The notes under the pieces were generated by a model, which saw only the letters and a program-made list of their open reading frames with translations, searched no databases and was not told the origin of the DNA. Below, in pieces: positions 4,345 through 19,000 of a stretch of 64,000 bases of DNA (position 1 is the stretch's first letter; every line of letters starts with the position of its first letter). Source of the DNA: Pagrus major (Eukaryota; Chordata; Actinopteri; Spariformes; Sparidae); contig NC_133215.1 of assembly GCF_040436345.1 (NCBI RefSeq), positions 21,998,806 to 22,062,805 of the forward strand, given 5' to 3'. The position numbers and the translations under genes are program-made.

Positions 4345-5545
4345 TTAATATCTCTTATTTTTTTTGTACCACTGAGCTCTGGCAACAACATCATTGGAGT
4401 AGTCTCCACCTGTTGTGCTGCTGTCAACATTTTCATAGGTGCGGACGTTTCCATCCCCCATATTGTAGGCTGCTATCCCTCCTGCAGAGACAAAATGAGA
4501 ACAAAGCTGAACAACAAACAGTGAAGAGAGATGGTGAGTGATGTGTGAGTGTACTGGTTCAATAAAACAAACCTTTCAGCTTCTTCTCTGTGTTCCAGCC
4601 AGGAAATTTTTTGCTGATCCGTCCGATGAAATAAACCAAGATCTCGGTGGCTTGGCAGAGGTGTTCCTCACTGTCCCATGCACCCCGTGCAGTGTGTCCA
4701 CCTCCATTTGGATTTACGTCAACCTACAGAAATGGGATGAAAACTGCTGTTATTGTATTGGACTGTGAGGCTCAACTAAGAGGACATGAGTAAAAGAGTA
4801 GTCTTTGTTATGACCTGCATCAGTCCCCAGGCGTTACCCCCATCTCCCCAGCCACCATTTAGTTGATTTCCAGCCCTGGACTCTCTGGAGATGATGGCAG
4901 CGATGAGAGCTGGATCGATTCCATATTTACCTCCAACTCTGTTGATTTTAGACCTGTACTTTTCCATTCTGTCTTCATCTATCTCTGCCATCCGTTGTGA
5001 TGCCTTCACACCTTTAGAGAGAAATCAGACAGAGAACAGAATTATAGCATCAGCACAACAAATGCATCTATTTCTCTGTCAATCCATCAAACACTGTGGA
5101 TGCAGATGATGAAAGCTACATGATGACTTATTCTATCATTTGTGATTGTATCAGCTCCTGTCTTTGTCTACTGCAGACTTTACCTGAGAATCCCAGTCCA
5201 TCCTGCTGCGATGTTTGCCATGAAGCACCAGTAGTTTCAACATCCATGATGTTTCCGTAACCTGCAAATGTTCAGTTTATTAGATTGTTTTCAATACACC
5301 TGCACATTTAAATCAGCACAATGCAAGTGGATTTGGAGAGAATTTACTATTACAGTCAAATAAAAATAAAAGAATAAGGTTAAAGACAGATAAAGTGCAT
5401 TAGTGTTTTAAGTTTGGAAGTAAGGATTTCATGTAAAGTTAAAGTGATAAGAAATTATTCCCTGGTTGTGTGTTTATACCACAAGCGCGTTCACAGCTAA
5501 AAGCCAAGTTCTACCGAGAGTAAAATAACACAAGCACCCACCCAT
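4345..5545 (-). CDS. lyg: Goose-type lysozyme (intact)
   Basis: Hydrolyses the beta-1,4 link between N-acetylmuramic acid and N-acetylglucosamine in peptidoglycan (GH23 family). Five coding exons, minus strand: 5545-5542, 5261-5184, 5011-4815, 4723-4573, 4481-4345. They join in phase to 188 residues, the usual length for fish g-type lysozyme. The start MGYGNI splits after ATGG, as in fish relatives. Catalytic Glu is E71 in ISRESRAG, and the goose Asp86/Asp97 equivalents are D84 in GWGDGG and D95 in LMQVD. The conserved end [14 protein letters not shown] is present. No signal peptide is visible, common in fish copies. AYNAG is AYNMG here. All introns have GT/AG ends, and a TATA box lies upstream. 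By its residues this gene should be active. It is the ordinary member of the cluster and the best comparator for the PYD-linked copy upstream. Confidence 0.95.
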
Positions 5546-8214: not shown

Positions 8215-9899
8215 GTAGATGTTATCATTTCAAAGAGTTGGTTTGCAATTGAAACAGACAGCAGGATGGACCAATGTGAAATTAAAAAGAAGTGTTGAGT
8301 CTCTGAGTTTCAGAGAGACTAGAGACCCAGAACTTCCATTGCTGGATCCACCCACTCACTTCCCCAGGAAGGTGGTTAAAAAGAAGGTAAAAAACTCCAC
8401 GACCACGACCACTCATCAAGGGTGTAAATTTCTCAGGCAGCACCCACCTCTTTACATTGATAACACAATTAACAAACATAACACAGACCTTTATTGTCCC
8501 TTGAGGTGAAATTTGACTAACAGACGTGGGTAAAAACACAACACACAAGATGATACGAGACATCACAACAGCATACGACCAAAAGAAAAAGAAAATGTGT
8601 CTGTTCCTTAAAAGGAATGAATCCATTTGTGTGGTAGCAATAATAAAGTGCTGCTGAGCAGTTTTAGAGCAAATTAAACACATTTATTACACTTGTAAAA
8701 AAGGAAAATATTGTGACATGTGATCACACACAATCAAATCCTTACAGTGTTTTGTAAAGCCCTCAGGTACTTGACTGGAAATAAATAAATAAATAAAAAT
8801 GTTGTGAATAACACTGAAATAATTAAATATATTACATGATGGTATGGTAGGTAGGTATGTTAATATTGTTATCATCATGAGTATCATTTGATAACCATTA
8901 AGGGCATGAGTTCAGTCCGGTCAAACAGTAAAAATAAAAATGAAAGCAAAAATAACTTATAGCTATAAGGTTAAGATAAGAAACTGCTTACGATGAGTTC
9001 AGGCTGGTCAAACAGTAAAAGTAAAAATGAAAGCAAAAATAACTTATAGCTATAAGGTTAAGATAAGAAACTGCTTACGATGAGTTCAGGCTGGTCAAAC
9101 AGTAAAAGTAAAAATGAAAGCAAAAATAACTTATAGCTATAAGGTTAAGATAAGAAACTGCTTACGATGGAATAATTTGTTTTCAGTTCAGTCATCACAA
9201 CATCTGACTCATAAAAACTGCAGTAAAATGTCTTCTAGGGCTCTGAAACAAGCAAATATTTCTAACAAAACCCTTGTTTGTGGGCAAGGCGGGTCTAATG
9301 AAAGATACCACCAAGGTTGCATTATGGGAAGTGTATAGTGTTTTGTGCTGCTGCACAGATTTTGGTCTTTAATATATATATTTCAAGCCCCCAGGCTTTA
9401 TACAAGTGCAAATTACAAACAGACCTATTAATCAATATGGTCTGGGGTTCTGTTTTGGGTTTTTTTTTTGTCGGATTTGTGATAAAATGTTTCACAATTC
9501 TGAAATATCCTGGTCCAAAAAATTAAGATAGTACGTTTTGATAAATTTTATATTATCATTTCAAGGAGTTGGTTTGCAATTGAAACAGACAACAGGATGG
9601 ACCAATGTGAAATAAAAAAAAAAAGTGTTAAGTCTCTGAGTTTCAGAGAGACTAGACATGCAGATTACCACCATCCACCCACTCACTTCCCCAGGAAATG
9701 CGCAGCGAAGTGCCTGTGTGCTGCTCTTTAGAGAATAAGTTCAACTTAAAATAAATATGAATTTAAATTGTTTGGTATACTTATCCTTTAATGCACTTTG
9801 AGTAATTAAACAGATGTAAGTTTGATTTAAAAAATAAATAAATAAAAAAAAGTTCATGCTTTATCCATCAAGTCGTTTCTCTTGTATGAACTAAAGACA
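8215..9899 (-). pseudogene. Truncated tandem copies of the PYD-lysozyme gene
   Basis: Pieces of the PYD-lysozyme gene recur here without its protein-coding core. 9550-9899 repeats its intron 1 (11830-12137). 9170-9540 repeats 11440-11820. 8780-8900 repeats 11293-11345. 8757-8776 is a damaged copy of the 30-nt microexon, and 8660-8756 repeats its 3' flank (about 9893-9990). 8215-8345 is another piece of the same intron. The PYD exon and all lysozyme exons are absent. This suggests two or more unequal-crossover duplicates that later lost their middle. Confidence 0.75.
8906..9166. repeat. 87-bp tandem repeat, 3 copies
   Basis: Units begin atgagttcag at 8906, 8993 and 9080. The orthologous stretch inside the PYD-lysozyme intron (about 11352-11440) has a single copy, so the expansion occurred after the local duplication. 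Confidence 0.9.
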
Positions 9900-9989
9900 G
9901 ATTAAACACATTTATTACACTTGGAAAAAAGGAAAATACTGTGACATGTGATCACACACGAACAAATCCTTACAGTGTTTTGTAAAGCC

Positions 9990-9995
9990 TTTATT
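9990..9995 (-). terminator. Candidate poly(A) signal of the PYD-lysozyme gene
   Basis: AATAAA on the minus strand, about 290 nt after the stop codon. A second AATAAA lies about 80 nt further on. Confidence 0.4.
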
Positions 9996-10280: not shown

Positions 10281-12505
10281 TTAAAAACCTCCTTTGTTTT
10301 TGTACCACTGAGCTCTAGCAACCACATCATTGGAGTAGTCTCCACCTGAGGTTTTGGCGTCCACCTTTTCATAGGAGTCGACGTTCAGGTCCCCTGCATG
10401 GTAGGCTGCTATCCCTCCTGTAGAGACAAATACAAGTGAGTACAAAGCAAAGCAAAGTGTGGAGGCAGTTTGTCGAGTGAAACACACCTTTCAGCTGTTG
10501 CTCTTTAGTCCAGCCAGGAAATTTATTCTTTATGCGAGACGAAAAATAAATCAGGATGTCCATGGCTTGACAGAGGTGTTCCTCACTGTCCCACGCGCCC
10601 CGTGCAGTGTGTCCACCTCCGTTTGGATTAACGTCAATCTATGGAAATATTAGCTGATAAAGGTCAGATCAATGCTTGTGTATTGTAACCTGAGAAACTA
10701 CTAAGAGGAACAAGAGAAGTTGTATCCTCACCTGCATCAGCCCAAAGGTATTATACGCTTTTCTCTTTTCGTCATAGCACCCCCAGCCATCCGTCAGTGT
10801 CTTTCCAGCCCTGCTTGATCTGGAGATGAGTGCAGCAATGAGAGCTGGATGAAGTCTTTTCTTATCAGCCACATTGTTGATGATGGATTTGTAGTTGTTC
10901 ATTTCTATCAAATCACTCTCTGCCATGGCTTCAGACGCCCTCACACCTTAATAAAGGAATCAAGACGAGATCATGAATATGGCCTCTGTGCAGCTATAAC
11001 CTTGTCAGTCTTTTGATGTAGTTACACTGTAGATATGAATATATATGTAACTATAGATGGATGGATCCATGTTCACCTGAGTATTCCAACTTATCCTGCT
11101 GAGCTGTTTGAGATGAGGCACCAGTAGTTTCCACCATCATGATGTCTCCGTTAGCTGCAAATGTTCAGTTTAGTACAGTCTTTTTCATCAACACACCTCA
11201 ACATGAGCACATAGCATGAGGAACTGAAGGTATTTTCACACCATTTACAACCGCTTACTTACCGGAAAAAGATGCATCCCTCAGGTACTTGGCTGGAAAT
11301 AAATAAATAAAAATGTTGTGAATAACACTGATAACCATTAGGCGATAAGGGCATGAGTTCAGGCCAGTCAAACAGTTCAAAATAAAAATGAAAGTAAAAA
11401 TAACTTATCAAACTATAAGGTTAAGATAAGAAACTGCTTACGATGGAATAATTTGTTTTCAGTTCAGTCATCACAACATCTGACTCATAAAAACTGCAGT
11501 AAAATATCTTCTAGGGCTCTGAAACAAGCAACTATTTCTAACAAAACCCTTGTTTGTGGGCAAGGCGGGTCTAATGAAAGATACAATCAAGGTTGCATTA
11601 TGGGAAGTGTATGATCTAGTGTTTTGAGCTGCTGCACAGATTTTGGTCTTTGATATGTATCTTTCAAGCCCCCAGGCTTTATACAAGTGCAAATAACAAA
11701 CAGACCTATTAATCAATATGGTCTGGGGTTTTGTTTTGGGTTTTTTTTTGTCGGATTTGTGATAAAATGCTTCACAATTCTGAAATATCCCTGTCCAAAA
11801 AATTAAGATACTACGTTTTGATAAGTTTGATATTATCATTTCAAAGAGTTGGTTTGCAATTGAAACAGACAACAGGATGGACCAATGTGAAATTAAAAAA
11901 AAAAAGTGTTAAGTCTCTGAGTTTCAGAGAGACTAGAGATGCAGATTACAAGTGCCTGTGTGCTGCTCTTTAGTGGATAAGTTCAACCTAAAATAAATAT
12001 GAATTTAAATTATTTGGTAAGCTTATCCTTTAATGCACTTCGAGTAGTTTGATTTAGTTTGATTTAACAAATAAATAAATTAAAAAAAGTTCATGCTTTA
12101 TCCATCAAGTCGTTTCTCTTGTATGAACTAAAGACAGCCTGCTGTTTAAATGGCTTCTGGTAGATGTGGACCTCACCTCTCAGGGCTGTATTATTGTGCA
12201 TAATTTCACTTCAAACCCTTAAAGGAGTAAACAGATCTGTTGTTACACTCACTGAGGCTCTCTTTATGCGCGTTGCAGCCAATGTTTTCCAACATCTTCA
12301 CAACCACCTCCACAGCCTTGGACTCTGTGAAGGTTTTAACCAGGACATCTACGACTTCTAGACGACTCTTGTCTTCCACAGCACTCTTTCTGATCCGCGG
12401 CTCATCCCTGCGGTCCAAGATCTCGGAGCAGAAGGCCTTGAAATCATCCCGGCTGAGATCCTCCAGTGTGTCTTTGATAAGCGATTTAGCGGTTTTGGGC
12501 GGCAT
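10281..12505 (-). CDS. PYRIN-domain/g-type lysozyme fusion (predicted)
   Basis: Predicted six-exon gene, 287 aa: 12505-12253 (PYD), 11292-11263 (30-nt microexon), 11154-11077, 10946-10732, 10638-10488, 10417-10281. All junctions are GT/AG and phases match (1,1,1,0,1), with no stop. Residues 1-84 are an ASC/NLRP-like PYRIN domain ([17 protein letters not shown], later [11 protein letters not shown] and [10 protein letters not shown]), a death-fold partner for inflammasome assembly. Residues 95-287 are a whole g-type lysozyme domain. The catalytic Glu is Ser (S164 in ISRSSRAG), six residues are inserted after GWG ([17 protein letters not shown]), AYNAG is AYHAG, and the Asp97 equivalent remains (D194). 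It is therefore probably a non-hydrolytic peptidoglycan-binding domain. No signal peptide suggests a cytosolic product. Alternatives: PYD is a separate relic exon and the lysozyme starts at M100. The lysozyme half is near certain, the fusion likely. Confidence 0.7.
11263..11292 (-). other. 30-nt microexon linking PYD to lysozyme
   Basis: Flanked by an acceptor ending ttatttccag and a strong donor gtaagt. It keeps the frame (phase 1 to phase 1) and encodes [10 protein letters not shown] with the split codons on either side. It could be a residual linker exon of an ASC-like donor gene; that is inference. Confidence 0.65.
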
Positions 12506-15834: not shown

Positions 15835-16000
15835 AGTAATCCTGCCCTGGAAAAGGTGGATTTGAATGAGTCAGCTACATTAAAATGATAATTTAGTCCA
15901 GAGTCTGGAGGATTAACTCATTTAAAACAATTAAAGTATTTCAAAAAGTAGCAGTAGCTGCCATACCCTGAAGATTCAGTGATGATGTTTAAGAATCCCG

Positions 16001-19000
16001 TCATTCCCTGAAATGTTCCCAGCTTCTTATTTCTGAAAAGAAGGCATCTCCAGGGCAGGTGGTGTAGTTTACCACCTGTCTGTGTCCGTGGATGGTGAAG
16101 TTGGCCATCAGTCCTCCTCCATCTACTGCACATTGGACGAGACGATGGCGCAGCAGATCCATAGCATAGCGAGAAGGCAGGGTGGTGGTGTAGTTACCAA
16201 TGATGGACACACCATACCCGATATTATTGTGCCCCCTGGTGTGTGTGCCGAGGTGTCTCCAACCTCTGCCTTCGTAGATGTAACCATCAGAGCCGACAAC
16301 AAAGCTGATAGCACAAAGATACAGAGCTTGAATAAATGCAGTGTGCAGTAACCATTCTGAAGTAAATTCAACATTATGCAAAAATTGGAATGTGATGTTA
16401 CGACACAAATAGGGCAAAATATTCAGAATCAAGGCTAAACTTGTTTGAAAGTTTGATACATCTTTAGCAATAAGTGCTCACGTGCATAAAAGACATGTAT
16501 TCAGCAGCATTCTAACAAGCACTCCCACTATCTTTAACAAGATTCGAATTATCTCTTCTTAAAGGAATAGTTTAAGGGAAGACTGATACTCGCCTAATCT
16601 CATATCTGTGTTAATTATAGACAGAAGGGACAGGACGTGATTAGCCTAGCAGAATAACTGGAAGCAGGGGGAACAGCTGGCCTGGCTGTAATCCACCTAC
16701 CAGAAGCAATTAACACATTATATGTTGTTTGTTTAATCGGTATAATGGTAACATGGGTAGTGGTTTTACATTTAACATCACAAAGCTAGCCAGTATCAAT
16801 CTTCTCAAGAAAGCAAATAGGTGCATTTCTTCTCTTTCTTCAGAGGTTGGTTACCTATATCCTATGTCACTCCACTCTCGATCTTCCTGGTGGAAACGCT
16901 GCATGGATCTCATGTTACGAGAGCAGTCTGGGAAGGATAAACAGGGCGAGGATGGCTCATAGGTGTGGTGAACGTAGAGGAACTGGAGGGGTAGAGACAG
17001 TGGGACAGGTGTACCCCGGGAGGCCTTTGCCCCCCACTGACAACGAGGGATGATTTGCGGGCAGTCTGAGGAGAAGAGGAGAGAGAATGAGGCTGAGGAT
17101 ACTAAAACAACTGCAGATTGTGTTGTGTCACACCCACAAGCTTATATTTCCAACACTCAAAACAAGCTATCCAAGAGTCACAAGAATATACACAATGACG
17201 ATGCACTCCTATATAACGAGAAAGACTATTGTACATGGGGTTTATGAACCTTGAAATTTGGGAACTTACGATGGACATTTCCACAATTTCTAACATTTTA
17301 CAGACCAAAAGATGAATCAGTTAATGGAAAAAGAGTGTGTAGTGTAATGAATAATGACAACATTCATTTACTGCAGCACTACCTTGCACCCAAGCACACT
17401 TTTAAAAAAATAATTTCATTGCTCACCCCAGTATTTGTGTACAAATGTCTGCAACCCATTCTTCACCGCCTTCCCCACACCGGTGTCCAGAGCAATCCAT
17501 TCTGTCTTCTCCAGCTTCCAGACTAATTTCAGTGTCTCCATCACCTGACTGTGAAGATCCAGAGGCTCCAGAATAGATCTAGAGATCTCCCTTCGCCTTG
17601 GACTAACATGGCTAGTCACAGCATCGAGTCCCTGCCCCTCATGCAGAGTAAAACTATAGTATCCTTTCAAAATCTCACTGAGGGCCTGCGGCTGTTCATG
17701 TGCAGATAGGTTGCTGAGGTCCATTCCCAGTATAGCTCCATCCATGCCTCCATTAATAACAGCATCAGTGGCCAGAGTGGCAGGTCGAGACAGCTTGAAC
17801 ATCTTAGGGTGGTCCACGTTGTCCCAGCAGCCGTTGGGCCCCATGCGAAAAGATGCTGGGAAGTCCTGGAGACTTTGGAAGGACAGGCCCAGCGTCCTTC
17901 CTAAGGTGAGAGGGAAGAGCCCAACAATTGGCGTGCCCTCCATCTTGGCTTTCAGTCCTGTTTCGATTCCTAGCAGTAAGGGTGCAAGAGCTACCGTGGT
18001 GCCATCTGGAGCGAGGACCACCCCTCGTTCCTCTCCGGAATCCGTCACAATGTGGTGGATAGCCTTGTCAAAGAAGCTAAAGGATGAGGCATTGAGAATG
18101 GCTGTCTCTAGGACCTCAACATCACTGAGATTATATGATGAACCCAAGAAATGGATGGTCATTTGATCATCGTGGCCAGCGGTCCTCCGCAGGGCCCTGA
18201 CCAGAGAGAGGGGGGACAGCCCAGGGTTGGAGTCTTCGACCTGCTGAACAGCTCGGATGAAGCTGTCCATGTTACGCAGGTGGACACCTGAAAACAACAG
18301 CAGGGACATTGAAGTGCAATAATGAGTCAGTGACCTTTGAGACCTTTGTTCTCATGGTTACAATGACAAATGTGAGGTACAAGTTATGGAAGAAGGATCA
18401 CAGTTAAAAGAAACCAATGTTGACTGATGGTAGACTAGACAAAAAGAAACAAACTGCAATTTCCTGCGTTTAAGTCTGATGTTTTGTTGATCCATCTGCT
18501 CCTGCCGACCTCCTCCCAACATGTACTCTGCCACTCTTTCACAATGTCACACTACTTCCTCCTGACAAACTGTTGTAATTCCTACAGCTGCTATAGCTGC
18601 TAGTCACTTTAATGTGATTAAATCTTGTTTTGCGCCATTTGATCAAATGACTGATGCTGCCTTTTTTATTAGAAGACAGTCTAAAAAAGAAATAACCCTC
18701 CACTCCTCTGCACCTAAACCCTACACCAAGCCTGCTAATAACTTTTATAAAGTCTCTTCACCTGATGTAGTTGTATGACATTCGGTTGTGTCCTTCTCTG
18801 CTCTACTACTTTGGAAGCCAATTCTATTCAGGTGAAAAACGACTACAATACAATCTCATTGATGCTTGTTGGCGGAGGTAATGGAAAACTTAGATCTCTA
18901 ACAGCTTAAGAACACAATTCAACCTGTATTTGTGATAAATGTATCTGTAAAAATAATTGATTTGTATTCAGAAAATTCAATATCATAATAATAATAATTT

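Follow-up and report, generated by a model that had tools for sequence, protein, structure and literature searches.

The stretch of DNA analyzed here, referred to as the window, is 64 kb in length and corresponds to C1:21998806-22062805 in a genome of 786 Mb that is distributed over 25 contigs. Its genes, among them tandem lysozyme g copies, one of Pglyrp2 type and extensive clusters of PYDs and CARDs, suggest a teleost. On its minus strand, at positions 12505-10281, is located a predicted PYD-lysozyme locus, hereafter gene A, which was compared with paralogues inside the same genome and with the PDB, Pfam and published papers. Its features, and the neighboring canonical lysozyme g gene (gene B) that served for comparison, are given below in window positions.

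12651-12646, minus strand: TATA-like box, TATAAG, 141 nt upstream of the ATG; read in the sequence, a putative promoter element
12505-12253, minus strand: PYD exon, 253 nt, 84 codons plus 1 nt, with a phase-1 donor; ASC-type PYRIN
11338-11263, minus strand: candidate alternative first coding exon with an ATG at 11338, 76 nt, 25 residues, in frame with the lysozyme
11292-11263, minus strand: in-phase microexon encoding a 10-residue linker, 30 nt, with a strong acceptor and donor and no stop
11154-11077, minus strand: equivalent of lysozyme coding exon 2, 78 nt, homologous to canonical exon 2, with an acceptor common to the paralogues
10946-10732, minus strand: lysozyme coding exon 3, 215 nt, with RSSRAG replacing RESRAG and a 6-residue insert after WG
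10638-10488, minus strand: lysozyme coding exon 4, 151 nt, with homology to paralogue exons
10417-10281, minus strand: lysozyme coding exon 5 and stop codon, 137 nt, homologous to canonical exon 5
4345-5545, minus strand: gene B, with an MG first exon and an intact RESRAG

When joined, the six exons of gene A yield 864 nt that encode 287 residues with no interrupting stop codon. Every junction is GT/AG, and the exon phases match throughout. Indeed, all of the coordinates, phases and splice dinucleotides agree with the open frame running from the PYD through the microexon into the lysozyme that was put forward in a preliminary description of the locus. That description also divided the lysozyme into five parts. 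The domain is complete, as claimed, but it is formed by four coding exons (canonical 2-5), and five are reached only by counting the microexon. The TATA-like box said to lie upstream of the PYD exon is present, and its position is now settled as that listed above. In a Pfam scan of the predicted protein, PYRIN alone exceeded its cut-off, and no NACHT, LRR, HIN or B30.2 domain was found. A search of NCBIfam returned no family for gene A, and a scan of viral contigs for relatives gave seven pattern matches, none of which was confirmed.

Residues 10-78 of the predicted protein match PYRIN (PF02758) with a score of 55.2 bits against a cut-off of 22.9, and residues 7-85 match the ASC PYD construct of PDB entry 5gpp (E 3.4e-11). 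PYDs in general adopt a death fold of six helices. Modeled alone from its single sequence, the product of the PYD exon adopts a helical domain with a mean pLDDT of 73 and five helices of at least four residues. The best five PDB matches to this model are ASC PYDs, with TMq values of 0.67-0.70 and a Foldseek probability of 1.00, none at E ≤ 0.001.

PYRIN matches number at least 144 across the genome, with many grouped in clusters on contigs C17 and C1. A search with the gene A PYD gave 18 passing matches, one of them the query itself. Among the others, the top four are all positioned on C17 between 25.27 and 25.38 Mb and display 50-55% identity, with the next one at 42%. ASC is among these four; its PYD starts with MPPKT, and a CARD follows ~3.5 kb downstream on the same strand. 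The PYDs of gene A and ASC are identical at 43 of 84 residues. Counted from the ATG to the donor, the PYD exon measures 84 codons and one further base in gene A, ASC and the copy at C17:25375, and 83 codons and one further base in the copy at C17:25368. In an unrooted tree built with FastTree from 19 PYDs, namely the four ASC-type sequences (gene A included) and 15 others, the four are placed together with a local support of 0.998. On the basis of the C17 matches, the equal exon length and donor, and the grouping in the tree, the PYD exon of gene A is judged to be an ASC-type first exon that is sited away from the ASC cluster.

Two other identities for the PYD-bearing gene were considered and ruled out. 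Gene A as a whole is not ASC, given that none of the 67 CARD matches in the genome falls in the window and that lysozyme exons follow the PYD. Neither is it a caspase with an N-terminal PYD, as in zebrafish, for none of the 37 caspase matches falls in the window. A second PYD copy was not found in the joined 112.8-kb stretch from 21.950 to 22.063 Mb, where only one PYD match passed.

PYD and CARD exons are densely clustered around ASC over C17:25.10-25.38 Mb, which probably reflects a large NLR expansion. Two near-identical ASC-type PYD exons are found at C17:25368878-25369126 and C17:25274650-25274877. The former is followed, approximately 1.6 kb further on, by a same-strand open frame of 152 aa that matches no Pfam family, and this locus may represent a further gene that incorporates a first exon of the ASC type. 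Positions 1-1450 of the window are occupied by a 164-nt tandem repeat. Open frames near-identical to its own recur upstream of ASC on C17, at about 8949-9960 of a stretch taken from that region, and a common satellite thus seems to be present at both loci.

The C-terminal portion of the predicted protein, residues 96-285, matches goose-type lysozyme 1 (PDB 3gxk, E 8.3e-62). Its score for the Pfam SLT family, 14.0 bits, is below the cut-off of 21.3; gene B passes with 34.7 bits. A lysozyme query gave 20 exon matches, all within C1:21.969-22.010 Mb. By exon mapping, the array is composed of five full canonical copies, three broken copies (near C1:21,973, 21,985 and 21,993 kb) and, at the 5' end, gene A, whose lysozyme is the most divergent among the six full copies. 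The chance of a PYRIN match lying within 1.4 kb upstream, on the same strand, of any of the six lysozyme genes is ~8e-4, as estimated from the genome count of at least 144 PYRIN matches and with their clustering ignored. Note that the canonical copies at C1:21.969 and 21.977 Mb have identical coding sequences over the part compared, and result either from duplication in the very recent past or from duplication in the assembly.

The newly identified lysozyme g genes surveyed by Irwin all contain five coding exons with conserved introns (PMC4243810). Measured against this vertebrate structure, exons 2-4 of gene A are of canonical length apart from an 18-nt insert, and exon 5 is homologous, but a PYD exon and a microexon precede exon 2 and an MG exon was not found. 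In all five full canonical copies, the 3 kb that precede exon 2 contain an MG-type first-exon pattern. A search of the same distance upstream of gene A exon 2 revealed none, which bears out the earlier remark that an exon 1 of this type was not found for gene A. The search did give a second match in three of the five canonical copies, one of them within a simple repeat. Of the 700 nt that precede exon 2 in gene B, several hundred bases recur in two canonical copies and shorter blocks in the other two. Gene A has in common with this gene B region a single 46-column piece adjoining the exon, two further weak matches (E 0.036 and 0.13) being outside this count. Intron 1 of the canonical lysozyme genes and intron 1 of ASC are both of phase 1, and thus an exchange of first exons keeps the reading frame.

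The gene beside gene A, on the same strand at about 15918-18351, encodes an Amidase_2 domain (open frame 16001-16477), and a 311-aa frame at 17416-18351, without a Pfam match, is provisionally assigned to it. The gene is taken as Pglyrp2-type, and Pglyrp2 is listed among lysozyme g neighbors in a figure legend by Irwin (PMC4243810). An assignment of gene A as LygF2 is not supported, since LygF2 sits in a different neighborhood and lost all three active-site residues (Irwin, PMC4243810), whereas gene A keeps Asp97 and adjoins the Pglyrp2-type amidase gene.

Splice sites were scored with matrices entered by hand. On this scale the donor of the PYD exon reaches 5.3 and is only fair; it had been described as good, in an exon of 84 codons ending in phase 1, and the length and phase stand. 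The open frame does continue beyond this donor into the intron, to a stop at 12208-12206, and would give a protein of 99 residues. Such a product, encoded independently of the lysozyme exons, could serve as a POP-like decoy that inhibits ASC assembly, and a human PYRIN-only inhibitor, POP2, is known (PMC3056782). The donor, however, is positioned as in ASC exon 1, which indicates an exon built for splicing, and the 1098 nt that precede the lysozyme exons yielded no in-phase mini-exon other than the microexon. A protein consisting solely of the PYD is thus regarded as quite improbable.

The uniqueness of the microexon within the PYD-lysozyme intron, among mini-exons of 9-60 nt, holds at each of three splice-score thresholds. 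Dinucleotide shuffles yielded an in-phase mini-exon in 1 of 1500 cases at the strictest threshold and in 6 of 1500 at the middle one. The length of the microexon is a multiple of three, and thus the PYD exon can also be joined directly to exon 2. The acceptor of exon 2 corresponds by paralogy to that of the canonical genes; it is weak in gene A (0.7), as compared to 2.6 in gene B. Derivation of the microexon from the linker of ASC was rejected, there being no convincing match in the C17 stretch (best E 4.5).

A partial duplicate of intron 1 of gene A is located in the spacer between genes A and B, where positions 8670-9990 correspond to 11278-12137. It contains the microexon acceptor and about the first half of the microexon, and on both sides it is bordered by a direct repeat of 92 nt (9898-9989 and 8670-8761, 95% alike). 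We also considered whether the intron is a transposon that carried the microexon. Apart from the intron block itself and the spacer, the matches (43, of which 40 were scored) are dispersed pieces of 35-82 nt around query positions 510-588, and local duplication thus provides the better explanation.

Two candidate first exons other than the PYD exon were noted. The shorter one, 25 nt in length, has an ATG at 12201 and a good donor. The longer one, 11338-11263, ends at the microexon donor and encodes a signal-peptide-like hydrophobic stretch. Translation might thereby begin internally, either in this exon or at the ATGATG inside exon 11154-11077, to produce a pseudolysozyme devoid of a PYD, with the PYD exon belonging to something separate. 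In keeping with this, the ATG at 11338 is in frame with both the microexon and the lysozyme and is followed by a strong donor, and in salmon and cod the alternative 5' forms of lysozyme g genes include ones that carry a signal peptide (PMC4243810, PMC4914998). The hydrophobic peptide, however, is mostly a translated polypyrimidine tract, as would be expected upstream of a good acceptor, and in the spacer duplicate the frame from the matching ATG (8898) ends after four codons. An internal start would also have to do without the MG-exon pattern, which is absent from the 3 kb upstream, and it would leave no known partner for a PYD exon that shows constraint and ends in a phase-1 donor. We consider it unlikely, and favor the joining of the PYD exon to the lysozyme exons.

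The catalytic glutamate of goose-type lysozymes (Glu 73 in goose numbering) is replaced by a serine in gene A, a change of RESRAG to RSSRAG that was absent from the preliminary account. RESRAG is kept in all five full paralogues, and RES occupies the catalytic position in all four of the PDB chains aligned. The six-residue insert follows WG in the loop of the second acidic residue. There, where the alignment is uncertain, a cysteine stands after WG in place of Asp 86, with the insert and an aspartate two residues on. The third acidic residue, Asp 97, is retained in the sequence MQID. Much of the remaining domain is conserved, including stretches of 15 and 16 residues. Replacement of the glutamate with alanine or glutamine abolishes lysozyme g activity (PMC4914998; glutamine also in PMC4243810). 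We strongly infer from these comparisons that the lysozyme of gene A is catalytically inactive, the literature precedent covering alanine and glutamine and not serine. Gene A is thus described as a well-formed fusion gene model whose lysozyme domain is, as judged from its sequence, very probably dead.

Loss of the glutamate favors a binder over an enzyme. It may also be asked whether the fusion is expressed with a lysozyme domain that no longer binds glycan, or whether the protein, instead of sensing, regulates ASC in a dominant-negative manner. The catalytic residue is gone, and the insert in the active-site loop might block the groove as well; against this stands the conservation of much of the rest of the domain. 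Such an outcome seems rather unlikely, and a glycan-binding domain remains the preferred reading.

Comparisons of the gene A lysozyme with each of its five paralogues by the Nei-Gojobori method gave dN/dS values of 0.38-0.56, at dS values of 0.48-0.59, these being averages that also include the paralogue branch. The canonical copies among themselves give 0.46-0.99, so that the gene A values are not unusual for the family and are not strong evidence when taken alone. For the PYD, the dN/dS values relative to ASC and two other ASC-type PYDs are 0.43, 0.22 and 0.39. The bootstrap intervals of pS-pN are above zero in all three comparisons, in which dS, at 1.0-1.8, is near saturation. In 3000 runs of a neutral simulation, the 861-nt frame was still open in 5.9, 0.8, 0.2 and 0.1% of cases at 0.1, 0.2, 0.25 and 0.3 substitutions per site, respectively. 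The first of these values makes the open frame weaker evidence if gene A diverged recently. The PYD part alone was open in 28% of the runs at 0.25 substitutions per site; being short, it often stays open, and the signal thus comes mostly from the lysozyme. Apart from a C-terminal residue, there is only one indel inside the lysozyme exons, that of 18 nt. Taken together, the frame of gene A looks to be under coding constraint.

These data bear on whether gene A is simply a decaying pseudogene, in which an orphan PYD exon came by chance to lie next to an inactivated copy of the lysozyme. Three broken lysozyme copies are present in the same array, and the lost catalytic residue could also mark early decay. 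Yet there is no stop and no frameshift, the insert is exactly 18 nt, the splice dinucleotides are all kept, and dN/dS is less than 1 in both halves. Decay is accordingly judged highly improbable. The fusion of a PYD to a g-type lysozyme, as originally proposed, is supported by the architecture, the homology to ASC exon 1, the loss of the usual first exon and the signs of coding constraint.

In our preferred reading, to which we assign a probability of roughly 55%, the locus is one gene encoding a PYD-pseudolysozyme that would bind peptidoglycan in the cytosol and, by clustering of its PYDs, would nucleate ASC and caspase-1. The architecture, the homology, the loss of the catalytic residue and the signs of constraint on which it builds were observed or computed; transcription of the locus as one mRNA is inferred. 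With respect to origin, a copied ASC-type first exon, complete with the PYD, its phase-1 donor and its own upstream region, would have replaced the short MG exon of a tandem-duplicated goose-type lysozyme gene. The product would be a 287-residue cytosolic protein with an N-terminal PYD, the microexon linker and a lysozyme-g fold without the catalytic glutamate. Most fish lysozymes g have no signal peptide and are thought to be intracellular (Irwin, PMC4243810); with a PYD at its very N-terminus the fusion has no place for a leader and should likewise be cytosolic. Most likely, the groove of the pseudolysozyme would hold cytosolic fragments of peptidoglycan and leave them uncut. Several molecules on one glycan chain would bring their PYDs together, and the clustered PYDs would presumably nucleate ASC and then caspase-1. 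Fish ASC is known to link PYD sensors to caspase-1 (PMC9978379). The sensor or adaptor function put forward in the preliminary description fits, and no result refuted it; taken as a whole, that interpretation is supported in part. More tentatively, and with doubt outweighing confidence, gene A might represent a new class of inflammasome sensor in which a lysozyme turned from enzyme to receptor was exon-shuffled onto the ASC pathway, with the peptidoglycan polymer itself serving as the scaffold for PYD clustering and pyroptosis as the outcome.

Why dead lysozyme g copies persist beside active ones is a question left by Irwin in 2014 (PMC4243810). A PYD fused to a dead lysozyme g would provide a concrete answer for one such copy, namely binding without cutting, coupled to inflammasome assembly. 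If this is true, a peptidoglycan-binding enzyme fold joins the set of PYD sensors, and the genomes of fish may contain ASC-type first exons that have acquired new partners.

Among known systems, ASC shares with gene A the length of the PYD exon, the phase-1 donor and the MPPKT start. The two differ in what follows the PYD, which is a CARD in ASC and a lysozyme domain in gene A. In the PYD sensors, including the NLRP family, AIM2 and pyrin, a C-terminal sensor module is preceded by an N-terminal PYD. Gene A has the same order of an N-terminal PYD and a C-terminal module, and PYD clustering on a ligand is likewise the logic proposed for it; unlike in those proteins, a lysozyme fold would act as the sensor. 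The altered LygF proteins of fish, LygF1a and LygF1d in cod and LygF2 in medaka and tetraodon, resemble gene A in having a duplicated lysozyme-g fold with the catalytic glutamate replaced and in being kept beside active copies (PMC4914998, PMC4243810). Cod LygF1d occurs in both alanine and glutamate forms (PMC4914998, PMC4243810), and the expression of LygF1c and LygF1d rises upon Francisella infection and with IFN-gamma (PMC4914998). Unlike gene A, these cod, medaka and tetraodon proteins have no PYD in the passages that describe them. A precedent for a lysozyme-g domain fused to an immune module is provided by an oyster PGRP with a goose-type lysozyme domain (cited in PMC11576321 and PMC3308963), although there the partner is a PGRP domain and not a death-fold domain. 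No description of a PYD-lysozyme fusion was found in the titles and abstracts of the open-licence papers listed, a result that is confined to those papers and that agrees with the preliminary description, whose author knew of none. In three of the papers that contain terms for both domains, these stand in unrelated places of the text retrieved (PMC3308963, PMC9957108 and PMC3091668). The PYD-lysozyme architecture thus appears to be new, built on the already known plan of an N-terminal PYD attached to a ligand-binding module.
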